Source of the DNA: Rhyzopertha dominica
Taxonomy: Eukaryota; Arthropoda; Insecta; Coleoptera; Bostrichidae
Assembly: GCA_025024175.1 (NCBI GenBank)
Contig: QCXZ01000001.1
Coordinates: 31,676,942-31,740,941, forward strand
Length of the DNA stretch: 64,000 nt
Reading direction: 5' to 3'
Shown here: positions 4,269 to 54,098 of the stretch, piece by piece
Numbering within the stretch: position 1 is the first letter of the stretch
Layout: each line of letters begins with the position of its first letter
Notes under the pieces: model-generated
Seen by the model: only the letters and a program-made list of their open reading frames with translations
The model's database searches: none
What the model was told of the DNA's origin: nothing
Made by a program: the position numbers and the translations under genes

Positions 4269-5081
4269 CATAACAATGATGGATATTTTTCATATTAAGT
4301 CTGAATTTTCGATGAGCTATTGCTTTTTAACCTGCTTAACCGTTGTAAAATATTTATATTTTGGTGTAGTTGTTGAAGGAACACATATAATGTTGAATAT
4401 GAACTCCACTTCTTTTGTGGTAAGTAGCTATTTTTAAATATCTGCAATGGCAGAATAATAATAATATATAATAAATTTGTGCTTTTACAATTTCCTAAGA
4501 ATTTAATGCAAAAAAAAAAGATTATATGTAGATAACTACAAGTGCTCAATAGTATACACATTGGTATACATTTTCACATTGATAAGTCCAAATTCTAAAA
4601 TGAAAGAGTAAATTAGCAGAATAATGGCATATATCAATATTTCTTTTGCAACGCTTTTGCTTCACAAGGTATTAATACTAAGTTATTATTGCAAAATACT
4701 ACCTACAAGTTAACAATAGCGTCTAAATTGGTGTACTTATGTTAAGATGTCTACAGACGATTTCAGGATGGCGTATGCTATTACTAGCAAACGCTTTTGT
4801 TAACAAGATTATCCTGTAGAGAACGCTTAGATAACAAATTTCATGTCGCGGATATAAGTAAAGTGGGATAAATCTATAATAGGGGTGTTAGTTGTGATAT
4901 TAATCTTGCGATGTCTCAAGTTCCAATTTAAAATGAATGGTTTAAGTTATTTTAAAATTCCTTAAAAAAAAGTATTGTCATAATATGATGCAGTTGAGTT
5001 CTTTAGCAACTATTCCTTATTATCCAATAAAAAGTCTGGTAAGTGCTGAACGCAGAGTTATACCCTATACATACTACATGG

Positions 5082-5115
<34 letters not shown>

Positions 5116-8049
5116 TCAGGTGCGTCATACACTTCATAACATGCACAATATCCATCTAATAATATAAGCAAGCCTGTTTTTAAAATGTTACACACTGAAT
5201 TAATTAACATTTGAACTAAAATTACTTAAGATTAATACATTCCTACTGAGGGAACCAATGTTATCTGACATTATAACCAATCAGAGGCAGTACTGAAGTT
5301 TCCTAAGTGAATGAAATGCACCTGTACCTGCAGTTAAAGGTTAATAAAGTGCATATCGCTATGCCAATCTAGGTCTCAGGTGGGAATCCTTACTGTTTTA
5401 ATTTTGCTTCTAGGTAATGGAAAAAGTATACCATTCCGTAGCAAGAACATAAAGGTTCAGATCGAGTTTGCCCACATTGTTAAATGAATTGTTCACATTT
5501 ACACCTAATGAAAGTAGTCATGTAGGTACTGATCTTTCCGGAATACATTAAAGCTAACTTTTTTTAGCTCGGGACAAGTTGTTTTTGTCTAAGATCTGCT
5601 GTTATGGGTAATAACAAATCGCCTCTTTAATGTNCATGTAATTAGAATGACGACGCTCTTGTGTACCTATCTTGACAATAAACTTCGTCAAAAGNACATT
5701 TCACTTATTTATGCTTCTGAATTTTCGTTATTCTTGATTTATTTANAATNATTACATTATAACAAGACAGCCTTCTTCCCTGGTGCATTAAGAGCAATGT
5801 GTAGAATACGGCGGTAACAAGGAGAAGTAATTTATGTTTGATTTTGGCTAATGTAAGATGGGTCCCTCTGCAATATACTGTAAGGTAGGTTGTGAAAGGG
5901 AAAATTTCCTTAGGCATGCTTTCCATAGTAAACATTTTTATACTATTATACTAACCATAATAACAAGTTTTGCTCATATTTACATTCTTTTTATTGGTTT
6001 AATTTTGTCGATTTACGCATTTCACATACAATACACAATTTTCTATAAATTACCTATCAATTATGCTTTTCTCCGCAAAGTTACGTCTTTTGTTCAAATT
6101 CTTAGTATTTTGTATAGGCGTATTTGATCCTTTTTCTTATTTGACACTAATTTGCCGATTTATGTACTTACTGTTTCATAAATTTGGGGGCTTTTAAAGA
6201 AGAAAACATCATTCGATCATGTAATACATGCTCATCGATTTTGAAATAGCTAATGGTGCCCTTTTTTGTCAGAAGTTCATTTCTTTAATAAATATGTAGA
6301 CATTTTTCAAGTGATCTCCATTAATTGGTAAAAAGACGTGATAATTTGATAGAATTTGAAGAAGAAGGCATCACACTAATATCTGCACTAAAAATCAAAG
6401 TAAATGTATCTGCCATATATTATTGTAGTTATTTGATTTTTGTTTATTCTATATTAGAACCATAATAGTTTTAATGCTGCTGGACATACAATAGGTAACT
6501 GACAGCGTTTTTTAGCTTTAACTATTAGAATGGGGTTCAGTGACGATGCATTGGGTTTACAAATAATGCATAAATGTGTAAGTTTTAGGGAGAAAAGGCA
6601 TGAAAAGTTATCTAAAGCACATAAAAACTACTTGTTGTCTTATGTTTCTCCTGTGTAAAGCTCGTGTGTATGCATATTTAAATATCAGTGCGTACTTACT
6701 TTAGCTTCCCCATAGCTTCCGCTCCACTATGTAGAAATGACAAATTAAACTTGCACGATATTGTCCAGTTTGATAGCCTCAAGAAAATAAAATATAAATT
6801 TCTTATTTACTTCAATGTTAAACTGTGTATTAATACTTATAAAATATATATTACAGTTATTCTTTTGGCTAAAGGTAAGGATAATTTGCCATATTAAAGT
6901 ATTTGAATAGCAATAGCAAGAAATTACGTTCACACAACATACTATAAGGCTTTTATCTCAGTTTAACATAAGAAGTTTAATGCCCCTTGGAATGCGAGCT
7001 AACTAGGGGGCTTTCAATATTGGAAGTATTAGTTTAATGATATATATAAACGGGTTTGAATACTTTTCGACAAATACCTATCCGTTATATTTCTCATCAC
7101 CTTTTTCAAGAATTTACTGGAGAAACAGATTTTTCTTGAATGCTATGCTACATATTCCTGGTTGTAAGTATCAAAACGTTACCTACAATTTGTTAGATTT
7201 ACTTGCTCTAAGTATTCAAATACCTACATGAATAAGCAATGCGAGTCCATTTTCAACAAACACAAACGCAAGTAGTCTTAAAGTTCACATCTTTACCGTT
7301 ACAAAGCTGTAATAATAAGTGAGATGTCTAAAAGGAATTTGGGGTGTACTGTGTACTAAACAGGAATATTGTTGATGAATAAATTGTAATACTTTAGAAA
7401 GCAAATGCCTTATAGCGATTATCTGCTACTATTTCACCCCTACAGCTCGCCGTGTCTTCGATTACGGCCTTTCAACCAACCGATTCAGCTGGTTATGGTC
7501 ATATTCTTGTTCGAAACCACTTTGGAAGCTCATTCAGCAAATATTTCTGGTTTTCAATTTGTTTGTTGTAGATTATCACATGTATATAAAAGCAATATGT
7601 ATTTTTCCCACCATCATTAAGACCTGTATAAGTATAGCATATTATAGAGAGAAACAGGTAACAATATAAGTAAGGGAAAATGGCAAAGTAATCTCGTTAT
7701 ATTTTTATCCATGTCAAACGCTCTATATGCTATATGAGCATAAAATACAGAAAGAGAATTGATTAAAATCAAACATTAGTCAATGTTAATACCGGTTGCT
7801 AGTTGATGAGACTATTCATAACACATCATGAAGTAGATTTTCGAGTAGTTTAGTTCTTTTAAACACATTTTCATCGTTCCTGATCGACTGTTTGCTTCTG
7901 CTCTCTCAATTTGTTTCTTGTATGATTATCAAATACATTTATCAGCATTGGTATTACTAAGAGACATATGTACTGCTAATTAGACAAAACGTATGCTGTG
8001 TCATAATTTAAATAAGCAAGTGTTAGGAAGAAAAACAAGAAAATCGCGT
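4269..8049. other. AT-rich sequence without recognisable genes
   Basis: Apart from the ATT microsatellite at 5082-5114 I see no transposon protein, splice-framed exon or RNA gene. Short open frames here are AT-rich and lack start context or domain similarity. A weak, older copy of the repeat family at 8050-9110 may begin near 7690 (shared block around 7840-7880). Confidence 0.6.
5082..5114. repeat. (ATT)n microsatellite
   Basis: An uninterrupted run of about eleven TAT/ATT units. It explains the polyisoleucine open frame that overlaps it. Confidence 0.95.
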
Positions 8050-9110
8050 CATTTTTCTATTTGTCAATTATCCCGAATGCTATGATAGATGACGGTAATA
8101 AGCAACTTCTCAACATATAATAAATGCTAGTTATATTTAATAAAGTCCAAACAATACTCATTTAAGTACATTACTTCAATTTAATTGCAATAGCAAGAAA
8201 TATATGCTTCTAGATGAACAGAATTAGTTAAAAAGCAGGCAATTTTAACATTATTTAATGTAATTAACACGCAGAAACTAATAAAAAAGGGGAATTCACG
8301 ATATACAACGAAGTACGAACACAGTATATTTTTCAGTAGTCTAGTTGTCTTAAACGCAATTTTACCGTGCTTCAGCTTGCTCCATTTATGATTATCAACA
8401 TACACAGTACAGTTACAGAGAAAAAAAGCATGTAGTGGCATAATTTAAGCAATCTAGTGCAAAAATAATGAAAAAACTCGCCAATTTTTATATATATATT
8501 TAAAACGTTCTATATCCTGTGAAAACACAATTTCGTTTATTCTAATTCAACTTCAATCGCTTGAAATCCATTCTTTTATATAAACAGAATTGACTACGTT
8601 CACGAGGGTGATTTTAGGAAATCGTAGATTTTTGCTAGTCTAGTAGCATGTAGCTGATTGTTATTTATTACATCAAATATCCTGTACGCTATGATAGATG
8701 AGGGTAATAAGCAACTTCTCAACCTACAAGATTGATAACTGACATGCGAGTTATATTTAATAAAGTACAAACAAAAGTCAATTAATTATATTATTTCAAT
8801 TTAATTACAATTACATGAAATATATGCTTTTTGATGAACAGAATTAGTTAAAAAAGCTGGCAATTTTAACATTATTTATTACAATCAGCTGCATAAACTA
8901 GTTAAAAAAGGAAAATCACGATATACAACGAAGTACGAGCATAGTGTGTTTTTTAGTAGTTTACCTGCTTTAAACACATTCTTACCGTGTGTGTTTTGGT
9001 CTTCAGCTTGTTCCTTCTATGACTATCGATAGACATAGTAGCAAGTATTTCATTTATTCTAATTTAACTTCAATCACTTGAAATCCATTCTTTTATATAG
9101 GTAAACAGAG
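8050..9110. repeat. diverged tandem duplication, unit ~520-625 bp
   Basis: Blocks recur in the same order. A block around GATAGATGA and GGTAATAAGCAACTTCTCAAC appears at about 8080 and 8690. A block containing CACGATATACAACGAAGTACGA appears at about 8297 and 8916, ending in CTTCAGCTTG. A third (CTTGAAATCCATTCTTTTATA) appears at about 8560 and 9080. Spacing differs between blocks, so indels have accumulated. No coding content is visible; it is probably an old segmental or transposon-derived repeat. Confidence 0.75.
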
Positions 9111-9178
9111 TTGACTAACGATTTATGCTAGTTTAGTAATTTTAAACTTATATTCACCGTTTTGCTCAGCTATCTGAA

Positions 9179-9775
9179 CCTGCTGTGGTTTAGCCTAGGT
9201 TGTGAAATGACAGTTATTTAGCTCAATTAAGTCGTGCTGTAACCGTTATTTGACGTTTTTGCCACAAAATCACGGTTCAAATCTAGGAATACTCTTAGTA
9301 TTAATTTGTTTATTCTCATTCCAGATAACTGATAATCATTGCATGCTGCTGGCTTTAATTTCTTATCTAGTGCATTTTTAAAGAAATCGTAAACCTGCTG
9401 TGGATTAGCGTAGGTTGTGAAATGACAATTATTTAGCTCAATTAAGCCGTGCTGGTAACGTTATTTGATGTTTTTGCCACAAAATCACGGTTCATATCTA
9501 TGAATACTCTCTTAATATTAATTTGTTTATTCTTATTCCAGATAACTGATAATCATTGCATGCTGGTGGCTTTAGATTCTTATTTAGTGCATCTTTTTTT
9601 AAGAAATCGCAAACCTTCTGTGGATTAGCCTAGGTTGTGAAATGACAGTTATTTAGCTCAATTAAGTCGCGCTGTAACCGTTTGACGTTTTTGCCACAAA
9701 ATCACGGTTCAAATCTATGAATACTCTTAATATTAATATGTTTATTCTTTTTCCAGATAACTGATAATCATTGAA
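9179..9775 (+). repeat. three-copy tandem repeat, period ~215-220 bp, with tRNA-like boxes
   Basis: Copies begin at CCTGCTGTGG (9179), CCTGCTGTGG (9394) and CCTTCTGTGG (9614). The third is incomplete and ends near 9775. Each copy carries TTTAGCTCAATTAAG, which resembles a pol III A box, and CACGGTTCAAATCT about 55 bases later, which resembles a B box. The unit could therefore be a tandemly amplified tRNA-derived SINE. The spacing is longer than in a standard tRNA and the T stem pairs poorly, so the pol III reading is tentative. Confidence 0.8.
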
Positions 9776-10007
9776 ACCCTCCAGCTGGCCACAACGAAAA
9801 TCCATTGTATGAAATATGACAAAAAAAATAGTATAAAACCATAGAAAAACATGGGCATAGGTAATTATTAACCATTTAGTGTCAAAATGTGCTCCCTAAG
9901 CGGACTTAGCGGTAAGTTTTACCTAATATCCCATCTCAATTTAAAAATGATAAATTGATGAGTGGCCCTGCTTTTAAATGGACAAGAATAACGGCCCTCA
10001 GGTAAGT

Positions 10008-10165
10008 TTGCGTTTAGCCCAGCGGTAAAGTGTTGCATTGCCATACCGGAGGTACCTGGTTCAAATCCAGCATTCGGCATAGTAAAAAAATCCCGCCTAC
10101 CCCTGTTCTGGGGGTTGCCTATATATAGAGCGTGGATCGCGGTACCAACCCCCACCATCATAACA
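10008..10165 (+). mobile_element. tRNA-derived SINE
   Basis: An A box (TAGCCCAGCGG, 10015-10025) and a B box (GGTTCAAATCC, 10058-10068) lie 43 bases apart, which is normal tRNA spacing. The B box sits in a T arm with CTGG/CCAG pairing. The body that follows (to CACCATCATAACAGCGG) is not tRNA. The opposite strand encodes the peptide NAGFEPGTSGMA, a familiar by-product of arthropod tRNA-derived SINE heads. The acceptor stem does not pair, so this is not a working tRNA gene. Confidence 0.75.
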
Positions 10166-10435
10166 GCGGTTTACATATAGGTCATATCGCCATGCATATA
10201 TATACAATAGCAATATGTGATAATAGTAAATAAACATTTCATGTCAATTACACATCAGCAACCCACCTTCGCTGATATTATCCCATCTCCCTAGGGTGTA
10301 AAAGCCTCAGTCAGAAACATGCTGCTATAAAATACAAATGTCAGTCACAGTTTCACATCTCATTCCATCTTACCAAATTCAAAAAAGTCGAATAAAAATA
10401 ATTTACACTTAATAAATTCACTAATTACTATATGA

Positions 10436-10835
10436 ACGTCATATTTCTCATCACGTCACATTCAGCAAAAATAATCGAAAATTAAAAAAATTTTTGATCG
10501 CGAATTACGCTCGATTGTGCTAATATGCAAATGAGTGACCCAGCTGTTCCAAACTAGTACCCAAAAATTTAATAAACAACTCGAAAAGTATTATTTTCAA
10601 TATAGCAGCAATATTGAATCATTAATCCGGGGGAAATGAATGCATCTAATAAGATACTATTTATCAACATGCAAATTCAAATAATTTTTTCTAATAATAA
10701 GTTACTATTTATCAACATGCAAATTCAAATCATATTTCTCATCCCGTCACATAAAAAAAATCGAAAAATTAAAAAAATTTGATCGCTATTACGCTCGATT
10801 GGGCTAATATGCAAATGAGTGATACAGAAGTCTCA
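10436..10835. repeat. two-copy duplication, period ~290 bp
   Basis: A block running from CATATTTCTCATC through a TCGAAAATTAAAAAAATT-type tract to CTAATATGCAAATGAGTGA occurs at about 10440-10540 and again at about 10731-10833. A smaller repeat (ACTATTTATCAACATGCAAA) occurs twice between them. No coding content. Confidence 0.75.
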
Positions 10836-11344
10836 TCAGAGGCCTACTGATGACGGTACCTTGCGGGATTTTAACGTGGTTATGGCTGTATATGTAGCTT
10901 CTCCTCCTCTTTTAGGCTATTTCTGATATCACTGTATCTCGGGTTTTGCACGTACCCGCCTTTTCTTTTCTCCTTTAGTACCGCTTTCCATAATCCTATA
11001 TCCGTCTTACTGACCTATGTTTTTCCTCAAATTCTGCTATAATTCGTGTATTTCTAATTTTCCTTTGTATGGTTTCGACCTTTATTAAGTGGTACTCCAT
11101 TATCAAACAGTTAAACGCGTTTACTACCTTATACGATACCTGAACAAATTTACAATAAACACCAATATAGTTATTGTACGAGGCTTACTAAAAATTCCCT
11201 TTGTTCACTATTCTGTTCTATTCCATCTTTAGCGATGCGACCCGGCTGCACTTAGACCTTTTGATCCATCATGCCCGCACCGTAGCTTAGAAGAGTCTTG
11301 CCTTGTCAAAAAAGTGTAGTATCTCTTTCTAAGGTAACATGTAA
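10836..11344. other. no recognised gene
   Basis: Mixed-composition DNA between the duplication and the LINE relic. The part from about 11230 may be the 3' untranslated tail of that LINE, since it lies downstream on the minus strand, but nothing in it proves this. Confidence 0.4.
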
Positions 11345-11580
11345 AGATATTAAGTCTCAATGAATTGAGACCCAGATTCTCCAAACCTTTTGCCTCCCAG
11401 CAGTCCGCAGTTGGTAAGGAGGTGAATCGGAGTTTCCACCTGTCCTAAGCAGACCAGGTGCTACTCTTCGTTGCACCCATATTACATAGATGTTTATGAG
11501 CCGGCAGAGGACACCCACCATTAATCGCATTTGAGAACGGCTTAGGTTTAAAAGCCATTTCCGTTCTTGAGCAGGCACAA
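11345..11580 (-). pseudogene. decayed LINE, RNase H/C-terminal fragment
   Basis: The minus-strand frame has LLNLSRSQMRLMVGVL, the usual start of the C-terminal region after RNase H in many arthropod non-LTR retrotransposons. After a frameshift another frame continues with VETPIHLLTNCGLL and RFGESGSQFIE, which completes the same conserved segment (a Cys/His-containing tail). At least one frameshift is needed, and no reverse transcriptase lies upstream, so it is a short dead fragment. The clade (jockey/I/R1-like) is inferred from the motif order only. Confidence 0.75.
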
Positions 11581-13359
11581 GTCCAGTGATTTTTTTCTTT
11601 GTTTACTAAGTATTCTAATATTTAGTGTCTTAGAACTATTCACTATTTCTAATGATTGTAACAAGTTAGGTTTGTTACCTTTATCGAGAGTTGAATACTT
11701 TTAAGGTTTTTACTTAAAATATATCCCCTTTATTTATAACCAAACTGGGAAAGCGCTTTCAGCTCATACAAGGTTTCTATAAATGATTCATGCATCCAGC
11801 GCGAAATTATCGGTTAAATCAATTTGCCGCCTCTCACGAAAGTGACGTATACTTGCCATCTATCGATTTTTAAATTATTTGATATATTTTAATATGAGAA
11901 AACGCCTGGGAGTGTGTATTTTAACATATTATGTAGTGTTTTGTGGGATAATTAACTTTAAAAGTGACGTTTTCAAATTCGAAATAAGCAATTTCGACTT
12001 CAAACAAAAAAGGTAGACTACATGCCAAAAACAAACATGAATTCAATGATCAAATAAAGAATTTTGAATAGGACAACTAAAATTACAAAAACCATTTTAA
12101 ATTTTAAATTTGTAAAATAAGGGTTANCTATAATTTAGTATATTTTCCGTATTTCTAAAAATAAAATAATTTTCGGGATTTGTTACAAACATGTAAATAA
12201 TTTAAATTATTTAAAGACGAAAAATATTTATTGTCATTTAAACACACTGATGACTTATCTATATGAGCTGAAAACGCTTCACCAATTTAGTTAGTTTAGT
12301 TCCTGATTTTTTGACAAGTGTAGTTATATCTTGAGCATTAAAAGAACTTTCTAATAATTTATTCTGAGGTTTATAGGCAATTTGGATTTGATGATTTTGT
12401 TGTTATAATATAGCTATAATTCAATGTGAATAAGCTAGCGTCACTATAGCGCCCTCTGCATTTTAAGGATACTGAAAATAAGAAAAANATCAATATCTAA
12501 AACTACTGACATGATTGTCACATGTATAAGAATACCTCATCCTTGACTGCTCTTTATTTATAATGCTCTAAAAGCTCTAAAATATTGTTAATTGATAATT
12601 TAACCAGACGACATTACTTGCAAGAAGGCTTGAAATATTTCATTTGAAAGCAATTATGGAATAGCAACAAAATTTTATTACATTTTTCTTCATCTACTGC
12701 TTATTTATTACTAATCACTACCTATTCAAAATGTTATTCAGCCATTTCCTTTTCCTGCACATTTGATTAAGCTAAGAAGTTTTTGATCTTTTGTATGTGA
12801 AACTNTAGATCGGGTGGCTGTAAATAATAATTACAGNACCAATATGCAACATATGTTCTAAAATAACAATGCAATGTGCATATTCTGACGANGTCTTTAA
12901 ACAAGATTTGCGAGCTCATAACATTATCTGAATTATGGTCTCAGTTGCCAAAAATATTTGAAGATAAATACGAAAGTATAAAATATTGCAAATATTTGAT
13001 GACAGTGATGTTGAGGACGAAAACATAGAAACTGAAATCGCAACAAGAAATACTGGCGCCCACACTAATAGTTACGTAAAGTGCATAATTATGCGTATAT
13101 GAAGTACTAAAAGTATCAGTAGAGCTAATATTATACTCAGTTTCAACAACCTTTTTTTGACAAATCATCTCACACAGGTTATACTTGAATCCTCATTTTG
13201 TAAATTAAAGTTGTATAATAATTTTATTTTTACTTTACCTTTTTTAACTGACACTATTTTTGTTTATTATGTCCTTTAATTGGAGTTGTCCAATTAGCGT
13301 ATGAAAAGGATATTAGGTTGTAAACATTGCATTGCCCCTTACCAAAACAATAACAAGAC
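11581..13359. other. AT-rich, no convincing gene
   Basis: Very AT-rich with several Ns. Around 12991-13070 the + strand reads FDDSDVEDENIETEIATRN, an acidic stretch of the type found near the N terminus of piggyBac-like transposases, but no catalytic core follows. I leave it unassigned. Confidence 0.4.
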
Positions 13360-13361
13360 TA

Positions 13362-13690
13362 TACCGGGTGTTCTAAATTAAGTGCGCACCATTGCTAACT
13401 TTTTTATTATCATAGATACAAAGTCGGTTAAATTGGCAAAGTAGTAGTACTTTTTCTACTGATTAAGTTGGTGGAAGCAGAAAAACAATTGAACATAGCA
13501 TTTCCGAGAAAATAAAAGAAATGTCTTTTATTTTAATGGAACACCCTATATATTTTTTAATAAAAAGTTTGCAAATTGTCCACAGAACAAAAATGTTCCT
13601 TTACGATGTAGTCCTAAAATTGAAAATAACCGAATTATTACAATATTTGTCATTTAGACAAGTAGGCTATGTAATTTCTTAAACAAAACG
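13362..13690 (+). repeat. left terminal inverted repeat of the mariner-class element
   Basis: This matches the reverse complement of 14932-15260 almost throughout. It carries the outer TACCGGGTG end and, further in, GACAAGTAGGCTATGTAATT. It lies downstream of the transposase stop codon. Confidence 0.9.
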
Positions 13691-13746
13691 AAATTTGTTT
13701 CTTTATAACGTATTTTATTTTAGCTAAAATAATAAAGAAGCTTACA

Positions 13747-14810
13747 TTAGGTGTGCGAAACATCGCCATTTTCTTCAATACATTTTCGGACATTTTTCAG
13801 TACTCGTTGAGTAGTAACTCTAAAAATTGTTCTGCCGTCAATGGATCGTATAATGCGTCTAATATTGTTTTTCAGCTCTATCAGGTTCGCATATCTCCTC
13901 TTGTAGACTTCATCTTTGACATAACCCCAAAAGTAAAAATCTAATGGAGTTATGTCAGGAGATCTTGGGGGCCAAGGTATAGGACCATCTGTTCCTATCC
14001 ACCTATCTTCAAAAAACGTCTCTCTAACAGCGCTCTTACTTCCTGAAGGCGATGGGGAGGGGCTCCATTTGGTTGAAGGAAATATATTTGGGTCCGAGTC
14101 TCTAAGTTGATATCATCAAAATAATTTTCGAGTAATTCTGAAAGCATGTCGACGTATCTCCTTCTAGTCAATGTGCCGTCATAAAAAATTGGCCCAATTA
14201 CTTGTCTGCCCATCAGCCCACACCAAACATTAACACTAAAATGTCCTTGTGGGTTTCTGGGATGAGGAACAAATAAATTTTCACTAGACCAATAATGCTT
14301 GTTCTTTCGATTAAACATACCCCGATTCGAAAAATTTGCTTCGTCAGTCCAAAGAACATTCTTTAAAATATTGGGATTATGCATCCACATATCTACCAAC
14401 CACTGACAAAAAATTAGTCTTCTTGCAGTGTCGCCAGGTAATAAAGTTTGCACTGGTCGGTACTTATAAGGTACAAACTTATATTTTCTTAAAATCCTCC
14501 AAATTGTGCACAAACTGTAGCCACTATCCCTTACCAAATCTCTAGTTGAATTATTTTTATTTGCGTCAAAATATGCCAACACAATTATTTCTACTTGTTC
14601 ATTTATTATAAACTGTTTTGTAGTTCTAGATTTTTCAAAAATCCGTTCATTGCTTCTAAACTTTCTGTAGAGCTTCAAAAAATACCTCCTATCTGTTTGA
14701 TCACGATCAGGGTACATTTGACCATATTGCTCAAGTGCTCGGACACTATTTATACGGCAAACAAGATACACGTCTAACATATCGCATTTTTCTAAATGAG
14801 TAAACGCCAT
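13747..14810 (-). pseudogene. Tc1/mariner-class transposase, frameshifted, DD37D type
   Basis: The first open part (14810-13995) is 271 codons from ATG. An N-terminal helix-turn-helix region covers about residues 1-110 and the DDE core follows. The first catalytic Asp is D156 in LWTDEANF. The second should lie in the QQDGAPPH-type motif, but here the sequence reads QPNGAPPH, so the Asp is Asn (residue 248). A 1-base loss in a T run at about 14010 then shifts the frame. The other frame continues RWIGTDGPIPWPPRSPDITP with the third Asp 37 residues after the second position, then LDFYFWGYVKDEVY, and stops at 13747. Total length would be about 354 residues, normal for the family. Two independent lesions make it non-functional for cutting and joining transposon ends. 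Confidence 0.9.
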
Positions 14811-14931
14811 TTCCTACTAACTAATTAACTAACTTCTTAACTAACTAGCTCCAAAAACACGTCTAATACGAAAAATTACACCAAATGATTGATTCTGACA
14901 CAATAATAATTCTCTGACAGATCGTATGAAG

Positions 14932-15260
14932 CTTTTGTTTAAGAAATTACATAGCCTACTTGTCTAAATGACAAATATGGTAATAATTCGGTTATCTTCA
15001 ATTTAAGGGCTACATTGTAAAGGAACATTTTTGTTCTATGGACAATTTGCAAACTTTTTATTGAAAAATATATAGGGTGTTCCATTAAAATAAAAGACAT
15101 TTATTTTATCTTCTCGGAAATGCTATATTCAGTTGTTTTTCTGCTTCCACCATCTTAATCAGTAGAAAAAGTACTATTACTTTGCCAATTTAACCGACTT
15201 TGTATCTATGATAATAAAAAAAGTTAGCAATGGTGCGCACTTAATTTAGAACACCCGGTA
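14932..15260 (-). repeat. right terminal inverted repeat of the mariner-class element
   Basis: This lies upstream of the transposase start and is the complement of 13362-13690. The 120 bases between it and the ATG (14811-14931) are the only 5' space for a promoter besides the repeat itself. Confidence 0.9.
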
Positions 15261-15299
15261 TAGCGTTGCTAGATTTAAATAACGAGTTAGTTCCGTTAA

Positions 15300-29293: not shown

Positions 29294-29302
29294 TTCAATT
29301 GC
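29294..29302. repeat. left 9-bp target-site duplication
   Basis: TTCAATTGC lies directly outside the GGGTCCG end of the foldback element and recurs exactly at 34035-34043. Confidence 0.95.
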
Positions 29303-31020
29303 GGGTCCGTTAAGTTAGCTCCGCCATGTTGAGCAATTTTATTGAAAACATTGCTCCAGATTGCCCTGAGCTAGCTCCAGCTAGCTCCACTATTATAAAA
29401 GCTAGCTCCACCTTACTTGAGTAGTTATAAGCTCATCATTGCGGGGGGTGCTAACTTAACGTTATCCTCGCCATGGCCTCAAATCTGTTTCAAAACCTAG
29501 CTCCAGCTTGCCCAGAGCTAGCTCCAGCTAGCTCCACTAAAGAGAAAGCTAGCTCCACCTTACTTGAGTAGTTATAAGCTCATCATTTCGGGGAGTGCTA
29601 ACTTAACGTTATCCTCGCCATGGCCTCAAATCTGTTTCAAAACCTAGCTCCAGCCTTCCCAGAGCTAGCTCCAGCTAGCTCCACTAAAGAGAAAGCTAGC
29701 TCCACCTTACTTGAGTAGCAATAAGCTCATTATTTCTGGGAGTGCTAACTTAACGTTATCCTCCCCATGGCCTCAAATCTGTTTCAANACCTAGCTCCAC
29801 TAAAGAGAAAGCTAGCTCCACCTTACTTGAGTAGTTATAAGCTCATCATTGCGGGGGGTGCTAACTTAACGTTATCCTCGCCATGGCGTCAAATCTGTTT
29901 CAAAACCTAGCTCCAGCTTGCCCAGAGCTAGCTCCAGCTAGCTCCACTAGAGAGAAAGCTAGCTTCACCTTACTTGAGTAGTTATAAGCTCATCATTGCG
30001 GGGAGTGCTAACTTAACGTTATCCTCGCCATGGCCTCAAATCTGTTTCAAAACCTAGCTCCACTAAAGAGAAAACTAGCTCTACCTTACTTGAGTAGTTA
30101 TAAGCTCATCATTGCGGGGGGTGCTAACTTAACGTTATCCTCGCCATGGCTTCAAATCTGTTTCAAAACCTAGCTCCAGCTTGCCCAGAGCTAGCTCCAG
30201 CTAGCTCCACTAAAGAGAAAGCTAGCTCCACCTTACTTGCGTAGTTATAAGCTCATCATTTCGGGGAGTGCTAACTTAACGTTATCCTCGCCATGGCCTC
30301 AAAGCTGTTTCAAAACCTAGCTCCAGCTTTCCTAGAGCTAGCTCCAGCTAGCTCCACTAAAGAGAAAGCTAGCTCCACCTTACTTGAGTAGTTATAAGCT
30401 CATCATTTCTGGGAGTGCTAACTTAACGTCATCCTCGCCATGGCCTCAAATCTGTTTCAAAACCTAGCTCCACTAAAGAGAAAGCTAGCTCCACCTCACT
30501 TGAGTAGTTATAAGCTCATCATTTCGGGGAGTGCTAACTTAACGTTATCCTCGCCATGGCCTCAAATCTGTTTCAAAGCCTAGCTCCAGCTTTCCCATAG
30601 CTAGCTCCAGCTAGCTCCACTAAAAAGAAAGCTAGCTCCACCTTACTTGAGTAGTTATAAGCTCATCATTGCGGTTGATGCTAACTTAACGTTATCCTCG
30701 CCATAGCCCCAAATCTGTTTCAAAACCTAGCTCCAGCTTGCCCAGAGCTAGCTCCAGTTAGCTCCACTATAGGGAAAGCTAGCTCCATCTTACTTGAGTA
30801 GTTATAAGCTCATCATTTCGGGGGGTGCTCACTTAACGCTATCCTCGCCACTGTTTCAAATCTGTTTCAAAACCTAGCTCCAGGTAGCCCAGAGCTAGCT
30901 TCGGCTAGCTCCACTATAGAGAAAGCTAACTCCATCCTACTTGAGTAGTTATAAGCTTATCATTTCGGGGGGTGCTCACTAAACCTTATCCTCGCCACTG
31001 TTTCAAATTTGTTTCAAAAC
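29303..31020 (+). repeat. left monomer array of the foldback element (~12 units)
   Basis: The landmark CTCGCCATGGC (or a variant) recurs at about 29469, 29616, 29763, 29879, 30026, 30142, 30289, 30436, 30552, 30700, 30848 and 30995. Steps are 147 or 116 bp. Each unit contains AGCTAGCTCC subrepeats, CTTGAGTAGTTATAAGCTCA and CTAACTTAACGTTATCC. Confidence 0.95.
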
Positions 31021-34000
31021 CTAGCAAAACTAGCATTCCCTATAGTGGGGCTAGCCTTCTCTATAGTGGAGTTAGCTGGAGCCAGCTCTGGGCAATCTGG
31101 AGCTAGGTTTTGAAACAGATTTCAAACAGTGGCGAGGATGGCGTTAAGTTAGCACCCCCAGAAATGATGAGCTTATAACTACTCAAGTAAAGTGGAGCTA
31201 GCTTTCTCTATAGTGGACCTAGCTGGTGCTAGCTCTGGGCAAGTTGGAGCTAGGTTTTGAAACAGATTTCAAACANTGGCGAGGATGGCGTTAANCTAGC
31301 ACGCCCAGAAATGATNAGCTTATAACTGCTCAAGTAAAGTNGAGCTAGCTTTCTCTATAGTGGAGCTAGCTCTGGGCTACCAGGAGCTAGGTTTTGAAAC
31401 AGATTTAAGGCAATGGCGAGGGTAACATTAAGTTAGCACTCCCAGAAATGATGAGCTTATAACTACTCAAGTAAGGTGGAGCTAGCTTTATCTTTAGTGG
31501 AGCTAGCTCTGGGCAAGCTGGAGCTAGGTTTTGAAACAGATTTGAGGCCATGGCGAGGATAACTTTAAGTTAGCACTCCCAGAAATGATGAGCTTATAAC
31601 TACTCAAGTAAGGTGGAGCTAGCTTTCTCTTTAGTGAAGCTATTTGAAGCTAGCGCTAGGCAAGCTGGAGTTAGGTTTTGAAACAGATTTGAGGCCATGG
31701 CGAGGATAACGTTAAGTTAGCACTCCCAGAAATGATGAGCTTATAACTACTCAAGTAAGGTGGAGCTAGCTTTCTCTTTAGTGGAGCTAGCTGGAGCTAG
31801 CTCTGGGAAAGCTGGAGCTAGGTTTTGAAATAGATATGAGGCCATGGCGAGGATAACGTTAAGTTAGCACTCCCTGAAATGATGAGCTTATAACTACTCA
31901 AGTAAGGTGGAACTAGCTTTCTCTTTAGTGGCGCTAGCTGGAGCTAGGTCTAGGCAAGCTGGAGCTAGGTTTTGAAACAGATTTGAGGCCATGGCGAGGA
32001 TAACGTTAAGTTAGCACTCCCCGAAATGATGAGCTTATAACTACTCAAGTAAGGTGGAGCTAGCTTTCTCTTTAGTGGAGCTAGCTGGAGCTAGCTCTGG
32101 GCAAGCTGGAGCTAGGTTTTGAAACAGATTTGAGGCCATGGCGAGGATAACGTTAAGTTAGCACTCCCAGAAATGATGAGCTTATAACTACTCAAGTAAG
32201 GTGGAGCTAGCTTTCTCTTTAGTGGAGCTAGCTGGAGCTAACTCTGGGAAAGCTGGAGCTAGGTTTTGAAACAGATTTGAGGCCATGGCGAGGATAACGT
32301 TAAGTTAGCACTCCCCGAAATGATGAGCTTATAACTACTCAAGTAAGGTGGAGCTAGCTTTCTCTTTAGTGGAGCTATTTGGAGCTAGCTCTGGGCTACC
32401 AGGAGCTAGGTTTTGAAACAGATTTGAGGCAATGGCGGGGGTAACGTTAAGTTAGCACTCCCAGAAATGATGAGCTTATAACTACTCAAGTAAGGTGGAG
32501 CTAGCTTTCTCTTTAGTGGAGCTAGCTGGAGCTAGCTCTGCGAAAGCTGGAGCTAGGTTTTGAAACAGATTTGAGGCCATGGCGAGGATAACGTTAAGTT
32601 AGCCCTCCCCGAAATGATGAGCTTATAACTACTCAAGTAAGGTGGAGCTAGCTTTCTCTTTAGTGGAGCTAGCTGGAGCTAGCTCTGGGCAAGCTGGAGC
32701 TAGGTTTTGAAACAGATTTGAGGCCATGGCGAGGATAACGTTAAGTTAGCACTCCCCGAAATGATGAGCTTATAACTACTCNAGTAAGGTGGAGCTAGCT
32801 TTCTCTTTAGTGGAGCTAGCTGGAGCTAGCTCTGGGCAAGCTGGAGCTAGGTTTTGAAACAGAATTGAGGCCATGGCGAGGATAACGTTAAGTTAGTACT
32901 CCCAGAAATGATGAGCTTATAACTACTCAAGTAAGGTGGAGCTAGCTTTCTCTTTAGTGGAGCTAGCTGGAGCTAGCTCTGGGAAAGCTGGAGCTAGGTT
33001 TTGAAACAGATTTGAGGCCATGGCGAGGATAACGTTAAGTTAGCACTCCCCGAAATGATGAGCTTATAACTACTCAAGTAAGGTGGAGCTAGCTTTCTCT
33101 TTAGTGGAGCTATTTGGAGCTAGCGCTAGCCAAGCTGGAGCTAGGTTTTGAAACAGATTTGAGGCCATGGCGAGGATAACGTTAAGTTAGCACCCCCCGC
33201 AATGATGAGCTTATAACTACTCAAGTAAGGTGGAGCTAGCTTTCTCATTAGTGGAGCTAGCTGGTTCTAGGTTTTGAAACAGATTTGAGGCCATGGGGAG
33301 GATAACGTTAAGTTAGCACTCCCAGAAATAATGAGCTTATTGCTACTCAAGTAAGGTGGAGCTAGCTTTCTCTTTAGTGGAGCTAGCTGGAGCTAGCTCT
33401 GGGAAGGCTGGAGCTAGGTTTTGAAACAGATTTGAGGCCATGGCGAGGATAACGTTAAGTTAGCACTCCCCGAAATGATGAGCTTATAACTACTCAAGTA
33501 AGGTGGAGCTAGCTTTCTCTTTAGTGGAGCTAGCTGGAGCTAGCTCTGGGCAAGGTGGAGCTAGGTTTTGAAACAGATTTGAGGCCATGGCGAGGATAAC
33601 GTTAAGTTAGNACTCCCCGAAATGATGAGCTTATNNCTACTCAAGTAAGGTGGAGCTAGCTTTCTCTTTAGTGGAGCTAGCTGGAGCTAGGTTTTGAAAC
33701 AGATTTGAGGCCATGGCGAGGATAACGTTAAGTTAGCACCCCCCGCAATGAAGAGCTTATAACTACTCAAGTAAGGTGGAGCTAGCTTTCTCTTTAGTGG
33801 AGCTAGATGGAGTTAGCTCTGGGCAAGCTGGAGCTAGGTTTTGAAACAGATTTGAGGCCATATCGAGGATACCGTTAAGTTAGCACCCACCGCAATGATG
33901 AGCTTATAATTACTCAAGTAAGGTGGAGCTAGCTTTTATAATAGTGGAGCTAGCTGGAGCTAGTAGCTCAGGGCAATCTGGGGCAATGTTTTCAAAAAAA

Positions 34001-34034
34001 TTGCTCAACATGGCGGAGCTAACTTAACGGACCC
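31021..34034 (-). repeat. right monomer array of the foldback element (~21 units)
   Basis: The same monomer in reverse complement (landmark GCCATGGCGAG). At about 3.0 kb it is nearly twice the left array, so the arms are unequal. Units near the inversion point (31,020-31,400) are more diverged, with variants such as GGGCTACCAGGAGC shared by separated units. Confidence 0.93.
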
Positions 34035-34043
34035 TTCAATTGC
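34035..34043. repeat. right 9-bp target-site duplication
   Basis: TTCAATTGC, identical to 29294-29302, directly after the terminal GGACCC. Confidence 0.95.
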
Positions 34044-35379: not shown

Positions 35380-37310
35380 ATATGAAAACATGAAGGATGG
35401 ACACGTTTTAAAAGAGAAATAAAAGAAGCTAAAATAAAATATAATTCTGATTACATTCTCAAATCGACAATAAAACAATGGCAATTTGGACTATTGTGAA
35501 CTCAATGAAGGGACCAAAAAATCAAAGCATTGACCCAAAGCAGTTAAAGTTTGACAACGAAATAAACATTGACGACGATATTGTGGATGCAATGAATGCA
35601 CACTTTTTAAAAGACCAATCAACATATTTAAATCAAATTATTTATACAAGTAATTTCTAAGTGGAGCACTGCCGGTATACTTGTTACCTATATCATGTTG
35701 AGGTTAGTGAAATAAAAAACATCATAATGTCTGTAAAAAATACATCAGTAGGCTTATGACAATGTTCCAGTTGTAGTATTGAAACATCTTGCTGATTATA
35801 TATCCGCACCATTGTCAAGAATCATTGATCTATCACTGGAAACAGCTCGATTCCCAGATAAGCTCAAGGTAGCTATTGTGAGACCTGTATTTAAAAAAGG
35901 AGATAATACCCTCATTAAGAATTATCGGCCTGTTGCTGTTCTCTCCAATATATCTAAATAATTTGATGAAGTTATCTTACTAGGCTGCTTAGTTTTATAG
36001 ATACCCACCATATATTAAGTAATGCCCAAAATGGTCACAGAAAAGGCAAATCTACGCATACTGCAATAAACAATTTTCTTCAAGAAGTTTACGAAGCCTT
36101 GAATGATAACAAACCTGTAGTCGGTGTTTTCTGGGATTTATCAAAGGCCTTCGACACAGTAGATTACAAAATATTATTATCAACGCTGGAGATAATGGGC
36201 TTTCGAGGAAATGCTGGAAAGCTGATTGATCTACTTAGAAAACCGCAACCAAAGGGTCATGATAAAGGACAACAATGGTTTGAAAATCATATCAAAATCC
36301 AGAAGTCCAAGCCGTGGTGTGCCGCAAGGCTCAATACCAAGCCCACTTTTATTCCTACTTTATGTACTTAAATGATTTGCCTAGTGTAGTTACAGAGCCC
36401 ATAAACCAATTTGCTGATGATACGGCGCTGGTCATAAGAGGCTAATCCAAACACGCTATTCAAGACCAATTACTATGTAGTATGAAGAATATCAAGACTT
36501 TGTGTGATACCAAAAACTTGAAGTTAAACATCCAAAAAACAAATATGATGAGCTTCTCTTTATCCAAATCTCATTCTGTTAATGTCTTTTACGAAAACAA
36601 CGAACTTACCTCTTCAGACACAGCGATGTTCCTAGGGGTAGTGCTCGACAGCTGCCGTTCCTGGAACAGTCACATAGAGCATTTGATAGGAAAACTAGCA
36701 CCACTCCGATCGGTATCCTCTACAGTTAAGATGTCGGCAAGTTTGACTGTATACTACGCATTCGTCCACTTCCGTCTCCGCTAAGGTATTCTCTTCTGGG
36801 GAAACTGTTGATGTTCGGCGGGTTTTTATGCTTCAAAAAAAGATGCATACGCAGCATCTTTCTTATGAACAAAACAGACTCGTGCAAGAAAGTGTTCTCT
36901 GAAAACAAAAACTATTCGTATACACCATCTACGTACTGGAATGTGCCGTTTTTGCCAAGGAGCACTTTATGGAAAGTCACGTATACCAACACATTTACGA
37001 TACACGTGGGGTTTGCGTCGGTCATCTAAGAGTTCCGCAAACAACTTTTGCAAAAATCAAAAGGTTGTTAATTCATCAGTCCATAGACCTTTGTAATGCT
37101 ATTCCTAAAAAGGTGCGGCAACTACGACTGGTGCAATTCAAGAAAACTTTAAAACGTCATCTTACAGATGCATAGATGAATTTTATGTGACTTGTTCAAG
37201 TATTCTGTAATGTCAAATTTGATGTAAACGTCATTCGTCTTGTTACTTATTGTTATACATATACATATCTTGACTTGTTTCCTTGCCTGGATGGCCTTAT
37301 GGAATAAAAT
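35380..37310 (+). pseudogene. 5'-truncated non-LTR retrotransposon (jockey/CR1-like) with dead reverse transcriptase
   Basis: Reverse transcriptase blocks appear in the normal order on the + strand but in different frames. FPDKLKVAIVRPVFKKGD and NYRPVAVLSNISK lie at 35850-35960. VVGVFWDLSKAFDTVDYKIL, which holds the first catalytic Asp, is near 36120. VPQGSIPSPLLFLLY is near 36320. FADDTALVI, the YADD-box equivalent, is near 36410. MFLGVVLDSCRSW is near 36630. The tail runs to FKKTLKRHLTDA at 37175 and is followed by a 3' untranslated segment with AATAAA near 37303. At least five frameshifts or stops are needed. The endonuclease domain and ORF1 are missing, as expected for 5' truncation. Its normal job was target-primed reverse transcription. 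Confidence 0.9.
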
Positions 37311-50077: not shown

Positions 50078-50082
50078 CGTTC

Positions 50083-50234
50083 TGTCGGGGTTCGCGGTTT
50101 TATCGCAAGAAAACGAGAACCTTTCTTTTTGTCAACCTGACATATATTAACGATTGAAAAATCAACTAACTCATAACATAGATACACATGAAAAAATAAA
50201 TGTTGAACTGCTCCAGATAGCTGATGACGCTACA
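50083..50234 (-). repeat. 3' LTR of the gypsy element
   Basis: Minus strand TGTAGCGTCATCAGC to CGAACCCCGACA, beginning TGT and ending ACA. It differs from the other LTR at about four positions (for example CCCCGACA against CCCTGACA). Confidence 0.93.
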
Positions 50235-50255
50235 TCCACTCCCCCGCCAGTGATG
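50235..50255 (-). other. polypurine tract
   Basis: Directly upstream of the 3' LTR the minus strand reads GGCGGGGGAGTGGA, the expected primer for plus-strand synthesis. Confidence 0.75.
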
Positions 50256-50258
50256 GAA

Positions 50259-51755
50259 TCACGATGAGATCTGGAAGCGATCTGGAAATCTAACACGCCT
50301 TCCGAACCGTGTCGTTTGTTCCTTAATTCTGAGATCGGCTTCTTCACGCTGCAGGTTACTTGCAGCTGGTATATCCGTCGGAGGCTGTGGTTCTTCCGTT
50401 ACCTTATATGCGGGTTTGACTCTGTTCACAGACGCGACGATTTCGCCACCTTGATGTGCGATCTTAAGATTGTTCGCGCTTCTGCTTATGATCCGGAAGG
50501 GGCCTTCGTATGGAGGGTCAAACTTTGCTTTCGGGGAATCTCTTCTGACAAAGACGTGAGTGGCAGTCTCAAGATCCTGGAATATAAACGTTTTTCGCTC
50601 ACCGCGTCTGGCACCAGGGACTGGGCGGAGATTCCTGAAATGCTGGCGCAAATCTCGTATTAACTCCGTTGAATCGGTGGCGTCGGTGTTGTTTTCTGCT
50701 AAAAATTGGCCCGGAAGTCGAAGTGCTTCACCAAAAACCAATTCGGCTGATGTGGCAGCTAAATCGTCTTTCCAGGCGGATCGTATTCCTAACAAAATCG
50801 CAGGTAGCACTTCGGTCCACCGCGTGGTTTCGTGACAGCGGATTGCTGCTTTCAGCTGGCGATGGAACCGCTCTACCATTCCATTGGCTTGAGGATGGTA
50901 GGCTGTTGTACGTAAGTGTGTTGAGCCTAAAAGCGCGCTCAGCTGCTGGAAAAGCTGCGACTCGAACTGTCGGCCCTGGTCTGTGGTGATACGTAGCGGT
51001 GTTCCATACCTCGATATCCAGCCTTCGAAGAGGCTTCTGGCTACGGTGGTGGCTTCGATGTTCTTTATGGGTAGAGCTTCCGGCCAGCGAGTGAACCTGT
51101 CGACACACGTAACAAGATATCGCATACCTTCAGAAACTGGTAATGGGCCGACGATATCTACGTGCAGGTGTTCAAATCGTGAAGATGGTGGCTTGAACGT
51201 CCCTAGCGGTGATGAAACGTGTCGGGATATTTTCATTTTTTGGCATTGTAGACAGCTACGCCCCCATGTTCGGCAGTCACTATTGATCGACGGCCACACA
51301 AAACGTTGTGTGATGAGTTTGACTGACGCCTTGATTCCAGGATGCGACAGCTGGTGCATGGAGTTGAAAACAGCTCGACGATGTTCTGGCGTAACGTACG
51401 GTCTCAGAATAGGCGTTGATACATCGCAGTATAGGGATACGTTAGTTCCAGGTGTATGAACTTTTTTAAGCTGGAGAACGGAATCGGATTCCAGGAATCG
51501 ACGCATCTCGACGTCTTCTTCTTGAGATCGAGCCAGCTTATGGAAGTCTACGGCTTCTGCTATTTCCTCAACACGTGATAATACGTCGGCCACTACATTA
51601 TTCACTCCGGTAATATGTTTTATATCCGTTGTAAACTGCCCGATATAGTCTAAGTAACGAAACTGTCGCGGCGAACACTTCTCAAGTTTTTGTTTAAACG
51701 CGAAAGTGATCGGTTTATGGTCGGTAAGGACTGTAAACGCACGGCCTTCGACCAT
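50259..51755 (-). CDS. gypsy pol: RNase H end and integrase, open frame
   Basis: A 498-codon open frame. Residues 1-60 are the end of RNase H ([12 protein letters not shown], then [10 protein letters not shown]). Residues 134-171 form the integrase zinc finger with H134, H138, C168 and C171. The catalytic core has D200 (HVDIVGPLP), D259 ([10 protein letters not shown]) and E295 (NGMVERFHR), so a DD35E triad is present. The C terminus has the GPF/Y-type module ([10 protein letters not shown]). It joins element cDNA to the host genome. The methionine used here is internal to the original polyprotein. The upstream part is out of frame, so expression as a normal Gag-Pol product is unlikely. Confidence 0.93.
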
Positions 51756-52389
51756 ATGTCGAAAATGTCTAATTGCAAGGTATATAGCGAGAAGTTCGCG
51801 GTTGTATGCTGCGTATTTCTTTTCCGAAGCACTGAGCTTCTTCGAGAAAAATGCCAGCGGTTACCAGCAGTCGCCGTACTTCTTCTGCATCCGATACTAT
51901 TGTGAGAACGGCATCAGGCTGCGGAGCTGCCAGGGTTGTAACTCTCGCAAGGCTGTTTTTGCCGGCATCGAAAGCTTGCTGCGCTTCCGGTGTCTACGCA
52001 AGCTTGGCATTTCCTTTTACGTTCCCAATAAGTAGGTCGTGAAGCGGTGCTTGGATGGTCGCGGCGTCGCGGGTGAATCGCCTGTAGAAGTTTACCATTC
52101 CTAGAAACCTCCGGAGTTGCTTCGCGTTTTCCGGTTGTGGGAAATCATGGACGGCAGTCACTTTCTCTGGGGGTGGTGATATGCCATCGCTAGATACACG
52201 GTGTCCTAGGAAAGTCACTGAAGTTGCTTCGAAAACACACTTTGATAGATTGATTACGACTCCAAACTCCTTCAGGCGTTGAAAAAGTTGTCGCAGATGG
52301 CTTCTATGTTCTAACGGTGTAGTAGATGCTACGAGAATGTCATCTATGTACACGTATGCGAAGTCTAAACCTCTGAGCACCTCGTCCAT
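51650..52389 (-). pseudogene. gypsy pol: reverse transcriptase palm to RNase H, frame-broken
   Basis: The open part 52389-51994 has YVYIDDIL with the catalytic D16-D17 pair, followed by VTFLGHRVSSDGI and LRRFLGMVNFYRRF, the normal order after the palm. After LIGNVKGNAKLA the frame ends. RNase H continues in other frames through 51,990-51,750, where the next frame holds [16 protein letters not shown], the shifted version of the usual [10 protein letters not shown] block. RNase H is thus split by at least one frameshift before the open integrase frame. Confidence 0.85.
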
Positions 52390-52780
52390 GAAGCGTTGAA
52401 AAGTCTGAGCACGTCATGAACGGGAATTCAAAAAGGCCAAACGGCGTTGTAATTGCAGTTTTACATATGTCTTCTACGGCGACGGGAATTTGATGGTACG
52501 CTTTCACTAAGTCTATGGTAGAGAAAATCGTCTTACCGTGTAGTGCACTCGCGAAATCCTCTATGTGGGGGACGGTATACCTGTCTGGAACTGTACGGGC
52601 GTTCAGCGCACGATAGTCTCCGCACGGCCGCCATTCATCGTTCTTTTTGGGCACCAGGTGCAGGGGAGATGACCAGCTACTCTCGGATGGTCGGGCTAGA
52701 CCTAGTTTTACTAGCTGTTCAAACTCTTTCTTAGCGATTTGGAGTTTGTCTGGAGCTAAACGACGCGGTCTGTTTGTCAC
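52340..52780 (-). pseudogene. gypsy pol: reverse transcriptase fingers, with small deletion
   Basis: Contains [40 protein letters not shown] and [15 protein letters not shown] with the first catalytic Asp. At FEFPFMT the family normally continues with a short FGLRNAA-type block before [10 protein letters not shown]. Here that block is missing and the frame changes, so about 20 bases have been lost near 52,415. This removes a conserved piece between the first Asp and YIDD. Confidence 0.88.
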
Positions 52781-53306
52781 TGAAGGTCCTTGGTGTAGTG
52801 CGTATATGGTGAAGTGTCGTATGCGGCACGCTTTTGGGGATACCTAGGGGTCGTGTGATTTCCGGGAACTCTCGAAGTAGATCGCCAAATTTCATAGTAT
52901 CCGAGATGGAACGGATGGTGTAATCTACGTCGTGGACTTGTTGTCCTTTCGTGAAAAGCGATGTGGTACCGTCCAGCAGGCGTTTACTTCGAATATCAAC
53001 GAGAAGTCCATAATGCGCGAGGAAATCGGCACCGATTATTGGCTTAGAAACGTCAGCAACGACAAATCTCCATGTGAAATCACGACGAAGACCTAAGTTC
53101 AATATAAGTGTTACAAAACCATACGTGTGGATTGTTGAATTATTCGCGGCGAATAACTCGTAAATGGAACGTGTACGTCGTTCGCAATTTAACTTTCGTG
53201 GGTAAATGCACAGATCCGCACCAGTGTCTATCAAAAAGTTTATTTTCGATCGGTAATCGGTCACAAAGAGGCGGCTGCTTACTTGGGAAGCGTCGTCTGC
53301 CGCCAT
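52731..53306 (-). CDS. gypsy pol: aspartic protease
   Basis: The catalytic DTGA lies at residues 27-30 ([13 protein letters not shown]), and the flap/end region [16 protein letters not shown] follows about 65 residues later, as in retroviral-type proteases. After [19 protein letters not shown] a frameshift leads to the reverse transcriptase frame. In the intact family this domain is cut from the Gag-Pol product and processes it. Confidence 0.88.
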
Positions 53307-53887
53307 TAACGACTGCCGTTAGGGTTTTTCGTCCTCTTGGAGCACGGCGACCTGCACTTCCGGGCATTGTCTCCAAATCTGAAGTGGTACCAGCACAAAC
53401 CTCTGTTGTTGCTCCCGGTGGACCGCACTGTTTCGCGCGACGCTGATCGTGTCCTCGACTGCGAACGATCCCTTCGCCGGATTTCAGCAATTTCGCACTG
53501 CATTGAAGCAATTCTACTGGTCAAAGAAACCATAGTCTCAGTAAGTTTTTCGAGGGTTGATTCCATACTAGTTTTTACGGGCGCTACTGCCATGACCTGT
53601 TGCCTCGGTAGTGCTTCGAAAACAGCGTCTGCCAGCTCTGCCACCGTCGCTGTATCGGCCTTGCTCTGCGTAGCTAGAATTGCCTGAATGGAAGGTGGTA
53701 GGCGCCCTAGCCACAGCGATCTCACCAGGTCCTCCGGCACTGCTGAACCTGCAAGAGCCTGTAAATGTCGAAGAAACTGTGACGGNTTTCTGTCTCCGAT
53801 TTCTTCGTGTTCGNGGAGCGTTCGCGTCTTTTGTTCTTGCGGCGACCCTAGACGGCGTATTAACTCGGTTTTTTCACCCTCTGCCAT
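53306..53887 (-). pseudogene. gypsy gag, N-terminally deleted
   Basis: A 193-codon frame from ATG with a C-terminal zinc knuckle of the Mag type (CWYHFRFGDNARKCRSPC). Conserved capsid text is present (SQFLRHLQALAGSAVPEDLV, SLWLGRLPPSIQAILATQ). The start MAEGE runs straight into KTELIRRL, which in this family lies about 100 residues into the protein, so the N-terminal part has been removed by an internal deletion that kept the frame. Two codons contain N. Its end overlaps the start of the protease frame, as expected for a frameshifted Gag-Pol. Confidence 0.88.
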
Positions 53888-53925
53888 TATTCGAAACTTG
53901 TCACTGTATATTTGCGCTATATATC

Positions 53926-53942
53926 ATGTCGGGGTGTCACCA
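53926..53942 (-). other. primer-binding site of the gypsy element
   Basis: Just inside the 5' LTR the minus strand reads TGGTGACACCCCGACA. It begins with the TGG that pairs with the CCA end of a tRNA, and matches the usual Mag-type layout. Confidence 0.8.
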
Positions 53943-53946
53943 ATTA

Positions 53947-54098
53947 TGTCAGGGTTCGCGGTTTTATCGCAAGAAAGCGAAAACCTTTCTTTTTGTCAAC
54001 CTGACATATATTAACGATTGAAAAATCAACTAACTCATAACATAGATACACATGAAAAAATAAATGTTGAACTGCTCCAGATAGCTGGTGACGCTACA
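53947..54098 (-). repeat. 5' LTR of the gypsy element
   Basis: 152 bp, minus strand TGTAGCGTCACCAGC to CGAACCCTGACA. It is flanked outside by CGTTC. Confidence 0.93.

Follow-up and report, generated by a model that had tools for sequence, protein, structure and literature searches.

How is a 4.7-kb block of opposed, satellite-like arrays with inverted tips and a short duplication at its borders to be explained? The locus lies in a 64,000-nucleotide stretch of the Rhyzopertha dominica assembly, the whole of which is here called the window. Transposon-derived satellites have been reviewed (PMC9659126 and PMC12628747), and passages of PMC10218199 and PMC12628747 leave open whether a satellite is born inside a transposon or is captured by it.

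The borders of the element were studied at the level of single bases. The element extends over 4,732 bp (29303-34034), and one such element was found within the window. Its inverted 17-bp tips are perfect, with GGGTCCGTTAAGTTAGC starting at 29303 on the plus strand and its counterpart at 34018-34034 on the minus strand, in such a way that each strand of the window carries a single occurrence. The outer 60 bases of both ends agree at 58 positions, and the ungapped end-to-end match is broken after base 71 by a 3-bp shift, beyond which the similarity continues. An exact 9-bp duplication, TTCAATTGC, adjoins both tips, and the only other copy of this 9-mer in the window is a reverse one at 17641. 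The inverted ends and the exact duplication at both borders described in the sequence-only reading are therefore confirmed. The features are as follows:

29294-29302, no strand: left copy of the target-site duplication, TTCAATTGC, an exact match adjoining the tip
29303-29449, plus strand: left tip unit of 147 bp, counted as far as the first anchor, in which diverged monomer sequence follows the terminal inverted repeat GGGTCCGTTAAGTTAGC (register 0 best)
29450-31025, plus strand: left arm, monomers L1-L12 of 147 or 116 bp, L12 being partial (12 anchors)
31026-31040, no strand: approximate junction of the arms, without a middle domain (from the L12/R20 alignment and the central sequence, borders set by eye)
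31041-33884, minus strand: right arm, monomers R20-R1 of 147, 137 or 126 bp, R20 being abnormal at the junction (20 anchors)
33885-34034, minus strand: right tip unit of 150 bp with GCTAACTTAACGGACCC as its end (58 of its 60 outer bases as in the left tip; register 0 ranks first at 45 and 60 bp)
34035-34043, no strand: right copy of the target-site duplication, TTCAATTGC, an exact match

The whole window was scanned for 14-bp inverted pairs that lie within 12 kb of each other and are directly flanked by exact 9-bp direct repeats, and the element at 29303-34034 was the sole return of this stringent search. A looser scan with 8+8-bp criteria gave 0-2 hits per shuffle in 20 mononucleotide shuffles and hundreds of rows in the real window, of which almost all belong to the interior of the element, to a (TA)n tract or to a palindrome that lies against the left edge. 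This near-perfect palindrome occupies positions 1-4268 and touches the window edge. Between its arms, at 1-2110 and 2161-4268, 2,102 aligned positions are identical, 5 are mismatched and 4 are gaps; either an inverted duplication of very recent date or an error of assembly would account for it. A further inverted pair (61773-61858 and 62927-63012; 86 bp, 81% identity) overlaps short tandem repeats of 14-31 bp and may mark both ends of a further element whose tips carry repeats.

The monomers were located in the whole window with a fuzzy anchor of 27 positions, in which up to 8 substitutions were allowed. Twelve were found in plus and 20 in minus orientation, forming two opposed arrays, and the two tip units bring the number of units to 34. 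Since the two central ones are partial or abnormal, the figure of about 33 monomers in two opposed arrays given in the sequence-only reading is right. The same reading had listed monomers of 147 and 116 bp; both lengths were recovered among the 30 spacings measured (23 and 3 cases, respectively), but the list was incomplete, as units of 126 bp (2) and 137 bp (2) are also present. The short units lack 31, 21 or 10 bp, always inside one zone rich in 10-bp CTAGCTCCAG sub-repeats. Compared in pairs, the 32 units have a mean identity of 0.92, with almost the same values within the left arm (0.919), within the right arm (0.921) and between the arms (0.920), and the most diverged units are the innermost ones (L11, L12 and R18-R20, with identities to the consensus of 0.76-0.91).

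The inverted arms measure about 1.7 kb (left) and 3.0 kb (right) and meet near 31026-31040 with no middle domain between them. When the left arm and its tip were aligned to the reverse-complemented right arm, over the outermost 1,777 bp of the latter, 1,609 identities, 92 mismatches and 98 gap positions were counted. Long inverted arms of tandem repeats with a variable number of units, as expected of a foldback element, are therefore seen here within one element (12 versus 20 anchors), together with the target-site duplication at both ends. Nine of the 31 Ns of the window fall in the element (binomial p 0.0003), so the assembled number of monomers may be inexact.

With respect to coding content, no stop-to-stop ORF of at least 110 aa was found inside the element. 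When ATG, GTG and TTG starts were considered, five ORFs of at least 45 aa overlap it, four of them inside (47-48 aa, the longest wholly internal one thus having 48 aa) and a fifth (55 aa) crossing the right border. In the rest of the window no head-to-tail monomer arrays were detected, and searches with all parts of the element gave only matches of 13-19 bp, the best with an E value of 0.16. A different tandem repeat, with a period of 215 bp and 2.8 copies, lies at 9177-9773, with direct-repeat pairs near it (8064-8369/8673-8989 and 8530-8596/9047-9117).

The relationship between the tips and the monomers was also analyzed. Each tip was aligned to the monomer in all 147 possible rotations, over 45, 60 and 75 bp. 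Register 0 gave the best score for the left tip at all three lengths; for the right tip it came first at 45 and 60 bp and fourth at 75 bp. The in-register global scores exceeded those of all 500 shuffles in the six tests (both tips at 45, 60 and 75 bp). Local alignment of the outer 60 bp of the tips to the monomer was marginal, with a score of 23 against maxima of 21 (left) and 23 (right) in 300 shuffles each, and at 72 bp it was clear (42 for the left tip and 40 for the right one, with shuffle maxima of 23 and 23). The in-register global alignment is a clearer test of the relation than the local alignment of the outer 60 bp. In addition, a 12-bp motif, CGTTAAGTTAGC, is present in both tips and is found exactly in 25 of the 32 monomers (10 of 12 in the left arm, 15 of 20 in the right arm), each monomer copy being oriented opposite to the tip of its own arm. 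Judging from these alignments, the tip units are best described as diverged monomers in register with the array, which would leave essentially no unique sequence in the element. As the tips can be aligned as monomers and CGTTAAGTTAGC recurs in the monomers, the whole element appears to be repeat-derived.

The two arms were then compared unit by unit, scoring variants against the consensus over 30 units (all but L12 and R20, which are partial or abnormal). The pair L2/R4 has six variants in common, four of which occur in no other of the 30 units, and L3/R5 has three in common, one of them found in no other unit, the deletions of these two units being different (31 versus 21 bp). The shared rare variants thus keep their order at the outer end, L2/R4 followed by L3/R5. 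At the inner end, L11 and R19 have six variants in common, two of them in no other unit, and L11 further shares four variants with R18 and three with R11. Sharing was also detected inside the right arm, with five variants for R11/R18 and four for R6/R16. Of the 12 offsets tried in averaged arm-to-arm tests, +2 reached a p value of 0.034 and +8 one of 0.025, both without adjustment. These tests are weak, and the case for kinship of the arms lies in the rare shared variants, not in these averages. Regular higher-order spacing was looked for in the right arm, and no lag was significant, the smallest p value being 0.056 (lag 3), in the version that counts each gap column separately.

These patterns suggest that both arms are copies of one ancestral arm, unequally changed later. 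On the simplest reading, one ancestral arm would have undergone an inverted duplication, after which the number of units was altered independently; the right arm would then have two extra units outside and six more between. The alternative to an inverted duplication is that sequence was copied between the arms. The expansion by unequal exchange proposed from the sequence is compatible with the unequal arms and with private variants shared by distant monomers, but the tests for regular spacing gave it no significant support.

Taken together, the precise inverted tips, the exact 9-bp duplication, the opposed arms of tandem monomers and the lack of any sizeable ORF argue for a foldback insertion, and we consider it highly probable that the element is a non-autonomous foldback DNA transposon moved in trans. 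A foldback transposon with a 9-bp target duplication had been proposed in the sequence-only reading, and the anatomy (tips, duplication, monomer arrays and uniqueness in the scan) sustains it. In the proposed mechanism, a transposase made elsewhere would recognise the GGGTCCGTTAAGTTAGC tips and move the element by cut and paste, with staggered 9-bp cuts at the target that are then filled in. The ancestral arm would have been duplicated in inverted orientation, or the arms would have copied one another, and the shared variants point to arms that later gained and lost units, by slippage or by unequal exchange, and that also suffered smaller deletions (10, 21 or 31 bp) within the zone of CTAGCTCCAG sub-repeats. 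The length of the element and its variant patterns could then be explained by unequal exchange, slippage in the sub-repeat zone and copying from arm to arm. An origin as a Helitron or as an LTR element was rejected because of the exact inverted tips, the 9-bp duplication and the absence of direct end repeats.

Other explanations start from the array itself. A genomic satellite that already existed could have been captured between two transposon tips, so that the monomers were not born inside the transposon. The body of the element is indeed purely satellite-like, with monomers 92% alike on average, but a chance event of this kind would not give monomer-like tips in register and CGTTAAGTTAGC in 25 of the 32 monomers, and we regard capture as distinctly unlikely. 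It is very improbable that the structure is just a palindromic satellite array produced by misassembly, without any transposition. The nine Ns inside the array speak for an artefact, and inversion artefacts are conceivable because a second near-perfect palindrome lies at 1-4268; nevertheless, distinct tips, together with an exact 9-bp duplication and with arms that are unequal and carry private variants, are not what a fold-back artefact is expected to produce.

A further possibility, to which we give a rather low probability, is that the satellite monomer is the transposon itself, a MITE multiplied head to tail and then inverted. The left tip unit (147 bp) and the next 12 bp would in that case make up a miniature element, about 159 bp long, with CGTTAAGTTAGC and its inverse as its limits, and the monomer junctions all resemble a right end joined to a left end that has been shortened. 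If this were true, most monomers would keep an end-like site that may be a target for binding or cutting by the transposase, in such a way that the length of the array could change by transposase action besides recombination.

The foldback transposon reading leaves two candidates for the superfamily of the transposase. Mutator-like elements produce target duplications of 8-11 bp (PMC6446971), within which the 9 bp found here fall, although this length is not diagnostic, because Merlin elements show it too. Passages of PMC6446971 list for the Rehavkus group 9-bp duplications, TIR lengths between 26 and 400 bp and, close to the 3' end, a minisatellite. The combination described for Rehavkus in PMC6446971 and PMC10218199, a 9-bp duplication and terminal or near-terminal repeats of satellite or minisatellite type, is also what the present element has; against the listed TIR lengths, its arms measure about 1.7 and 3.0 kb and its gap-free outer match 71 bp. 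For arthropod MULEs a survey gives TIRs of 13-1193 bp (PMC13359780), and the excerpts of two further papers naming Rehavkus contain no tip sequence. Merlin, according to parts of PMC8101967, has tips starting with 5'-GG-3', duplications of 8 or 9 bp, TIRs of 24-462 bp and, in some elements, internal tandem repeats, and the element studied here likewise starts with GGG and has a 9-bp duplication. Foldbacks with arms of tandem repeats have been assigned to Mutator (PMC3169594, PMC4079207) or are Rehavkus elements (PMC10218199, PMC6446971), as far as the excerpts of these papers go, which counts against Merlin. The architecture thus favours Mutator/Rehavkus, while Merlin also fits. From the duplication length and the architecture, the mobilising transposase would rather likely be Mutator-like, possibly of the Rehavkus type, and it is unlikely that a non-autonomous element of this same kind is moved by a Merlin-type transposase, an alternative that concerns the superfamily only.

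Pfam searches of 10 of the 22 stop-to-stop ORFs of the window revealed neither a MULE nor a Merlin transposase, and in two forward frames of positions 1-15000 they gave nothing up to an E value of 0.01. The domains detected in those ten ORFs were reverse transcriptase, RNase H and integrase; in addition, an RdRP_1 match overlapped one to reverse transcriptase, and a single helix-turn-helix match stayed under its cut-off. Other mobile elements were noted in the window. A mariner-like element at 13359-15263 has 331-bp inverted ends that are 95.8% alike, include TATACCGGGTGT and are compatible with TA duplications; its transposase-like ORFs lie at 13747-14813 on the minus strand, one of them with 33 protein matches, of which the best is 95% identical and the two with a named organism are from Holotrichia oblita. 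A gypsy-like retroelement on the minus strand (50080-54098) has direct end repeats of 155 bp, 96.8% alike, and split reading frames; its ORF at 50.2 kb gave 4,863 matches, among which the organisms named in the 120 listed are arthropods, the top match showing 59% identity. Taken by themselves, the protein matches of these two elements make an arthropod host probable. A reverse transcriptase fragment lies at 35970-36371 on the plus strand (Pfam RVT_1, E value 1.4e-06, just under the curated cut-off).

Sequence collections and publications were searched for relatives of the element. The 17-bp tip is carried by two stretches in viral_contigs and three in genome_contigs, which were discarded as chance, as the BLAST similarity to the element spans 17-19 bp in all five. 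A 27-bp monomer string had 0 exact matches in viral_contigs, and the 12-bp tip string GGGTCCGTTAAG was not found in the main texts of open-licence papers. The monomer, inferred to be new in the sequence-only reading, may be so.

The FB elements of Drosophila melanogaster have, as here, foldback arms made of nested short repeats and 9-bp duplications, whereas their repeat units and tips are different. That the link between foldback and satellite would be new is not supported, since Tetris (PMC4079207) and Rehavkus-1_TC with TCsat23 (PMC10218199) were published before. By comparison with these descriptions and that of Tm1, the kind of element, one able to seed satellite DNA, is already known, so that the present one adds a case to a known kind without opening a new one, its one instructive feature being that it seems to contain nothing but repeat units.

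Tetris, in Drosophila virilis, is according to excerpts of PMC4079207 a non-autonomous foldback with arm repeats of about 220 bp, duplications of 8-10 bp and longer satellite-like arrays. It resembles our element in being non-autonomous, in the variable tandem repeats of its arms and in its link to satellite DNA (TIR-220), but it is divided into outer flanking (up to 866 bp), inner and middle domains, whereas the present element lacks flanking and middle domains of that kind. The left arm of its described allelic copies has three or four repeats of about 220 bp, with longer arrays on DNA fibres, compared with units of 116-147 bp and arms of 12 and 20 anchors in the present element.

Rehavkus-1_TC, from Tribolium castaneum, shares the satellite arrays in inverted termini and an arthropod host; its arrays consist of 164-bp TCsat23 units, mostly five and eight (excerpts of PMC10218199), and the 9-bp duplications listed for Rehavkus (PMC6446971) are of the length found here. 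Nonetheless, Rehavkus-1_TC is 9.5 kb long and belongs to a group with transposase (PMC10218199, PMC6446971), whereas the present element has 4,732 bp and no coding sequence. Compared by description only, the 3' TIR of the group is preceded by a minisatellite and its listed TIRs span 26-400 bp (PMC6446971), and our arms measure about 1.7 and 3.0 kb. Tm1, a Mutator/foldback element of the root-knot nematodes (Meloidogyne), shows 8-10 bp duplications in 45 of 53 complete elements, most often of 9 bp, and has in common with ours its composite TIRs, a variable number of tandem repeats and non-autonomous forms; it differs in its repeats of 13-15 bp, in the asymmetric 7-bp motifs outside the inverted repeat and in having a middle region (excerpts of PMC3169594).

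What is new here are the tip units as in-register monomers, the opposed CGTTAAGTTAGC in 25 of the 32 monomers and the rare variants common to both arms, and a fully repeat-derived element is not stated for the published relatives in the passages of the literature considered. An element that lacks separate flanking and middle domains and whose tips can be recognised as in-register monomers is a favourable case for the question of satellite origin. It suggests an order from tip unit to tandem array and from this to opposed arms, which predicts shorter relatives with the same tips.
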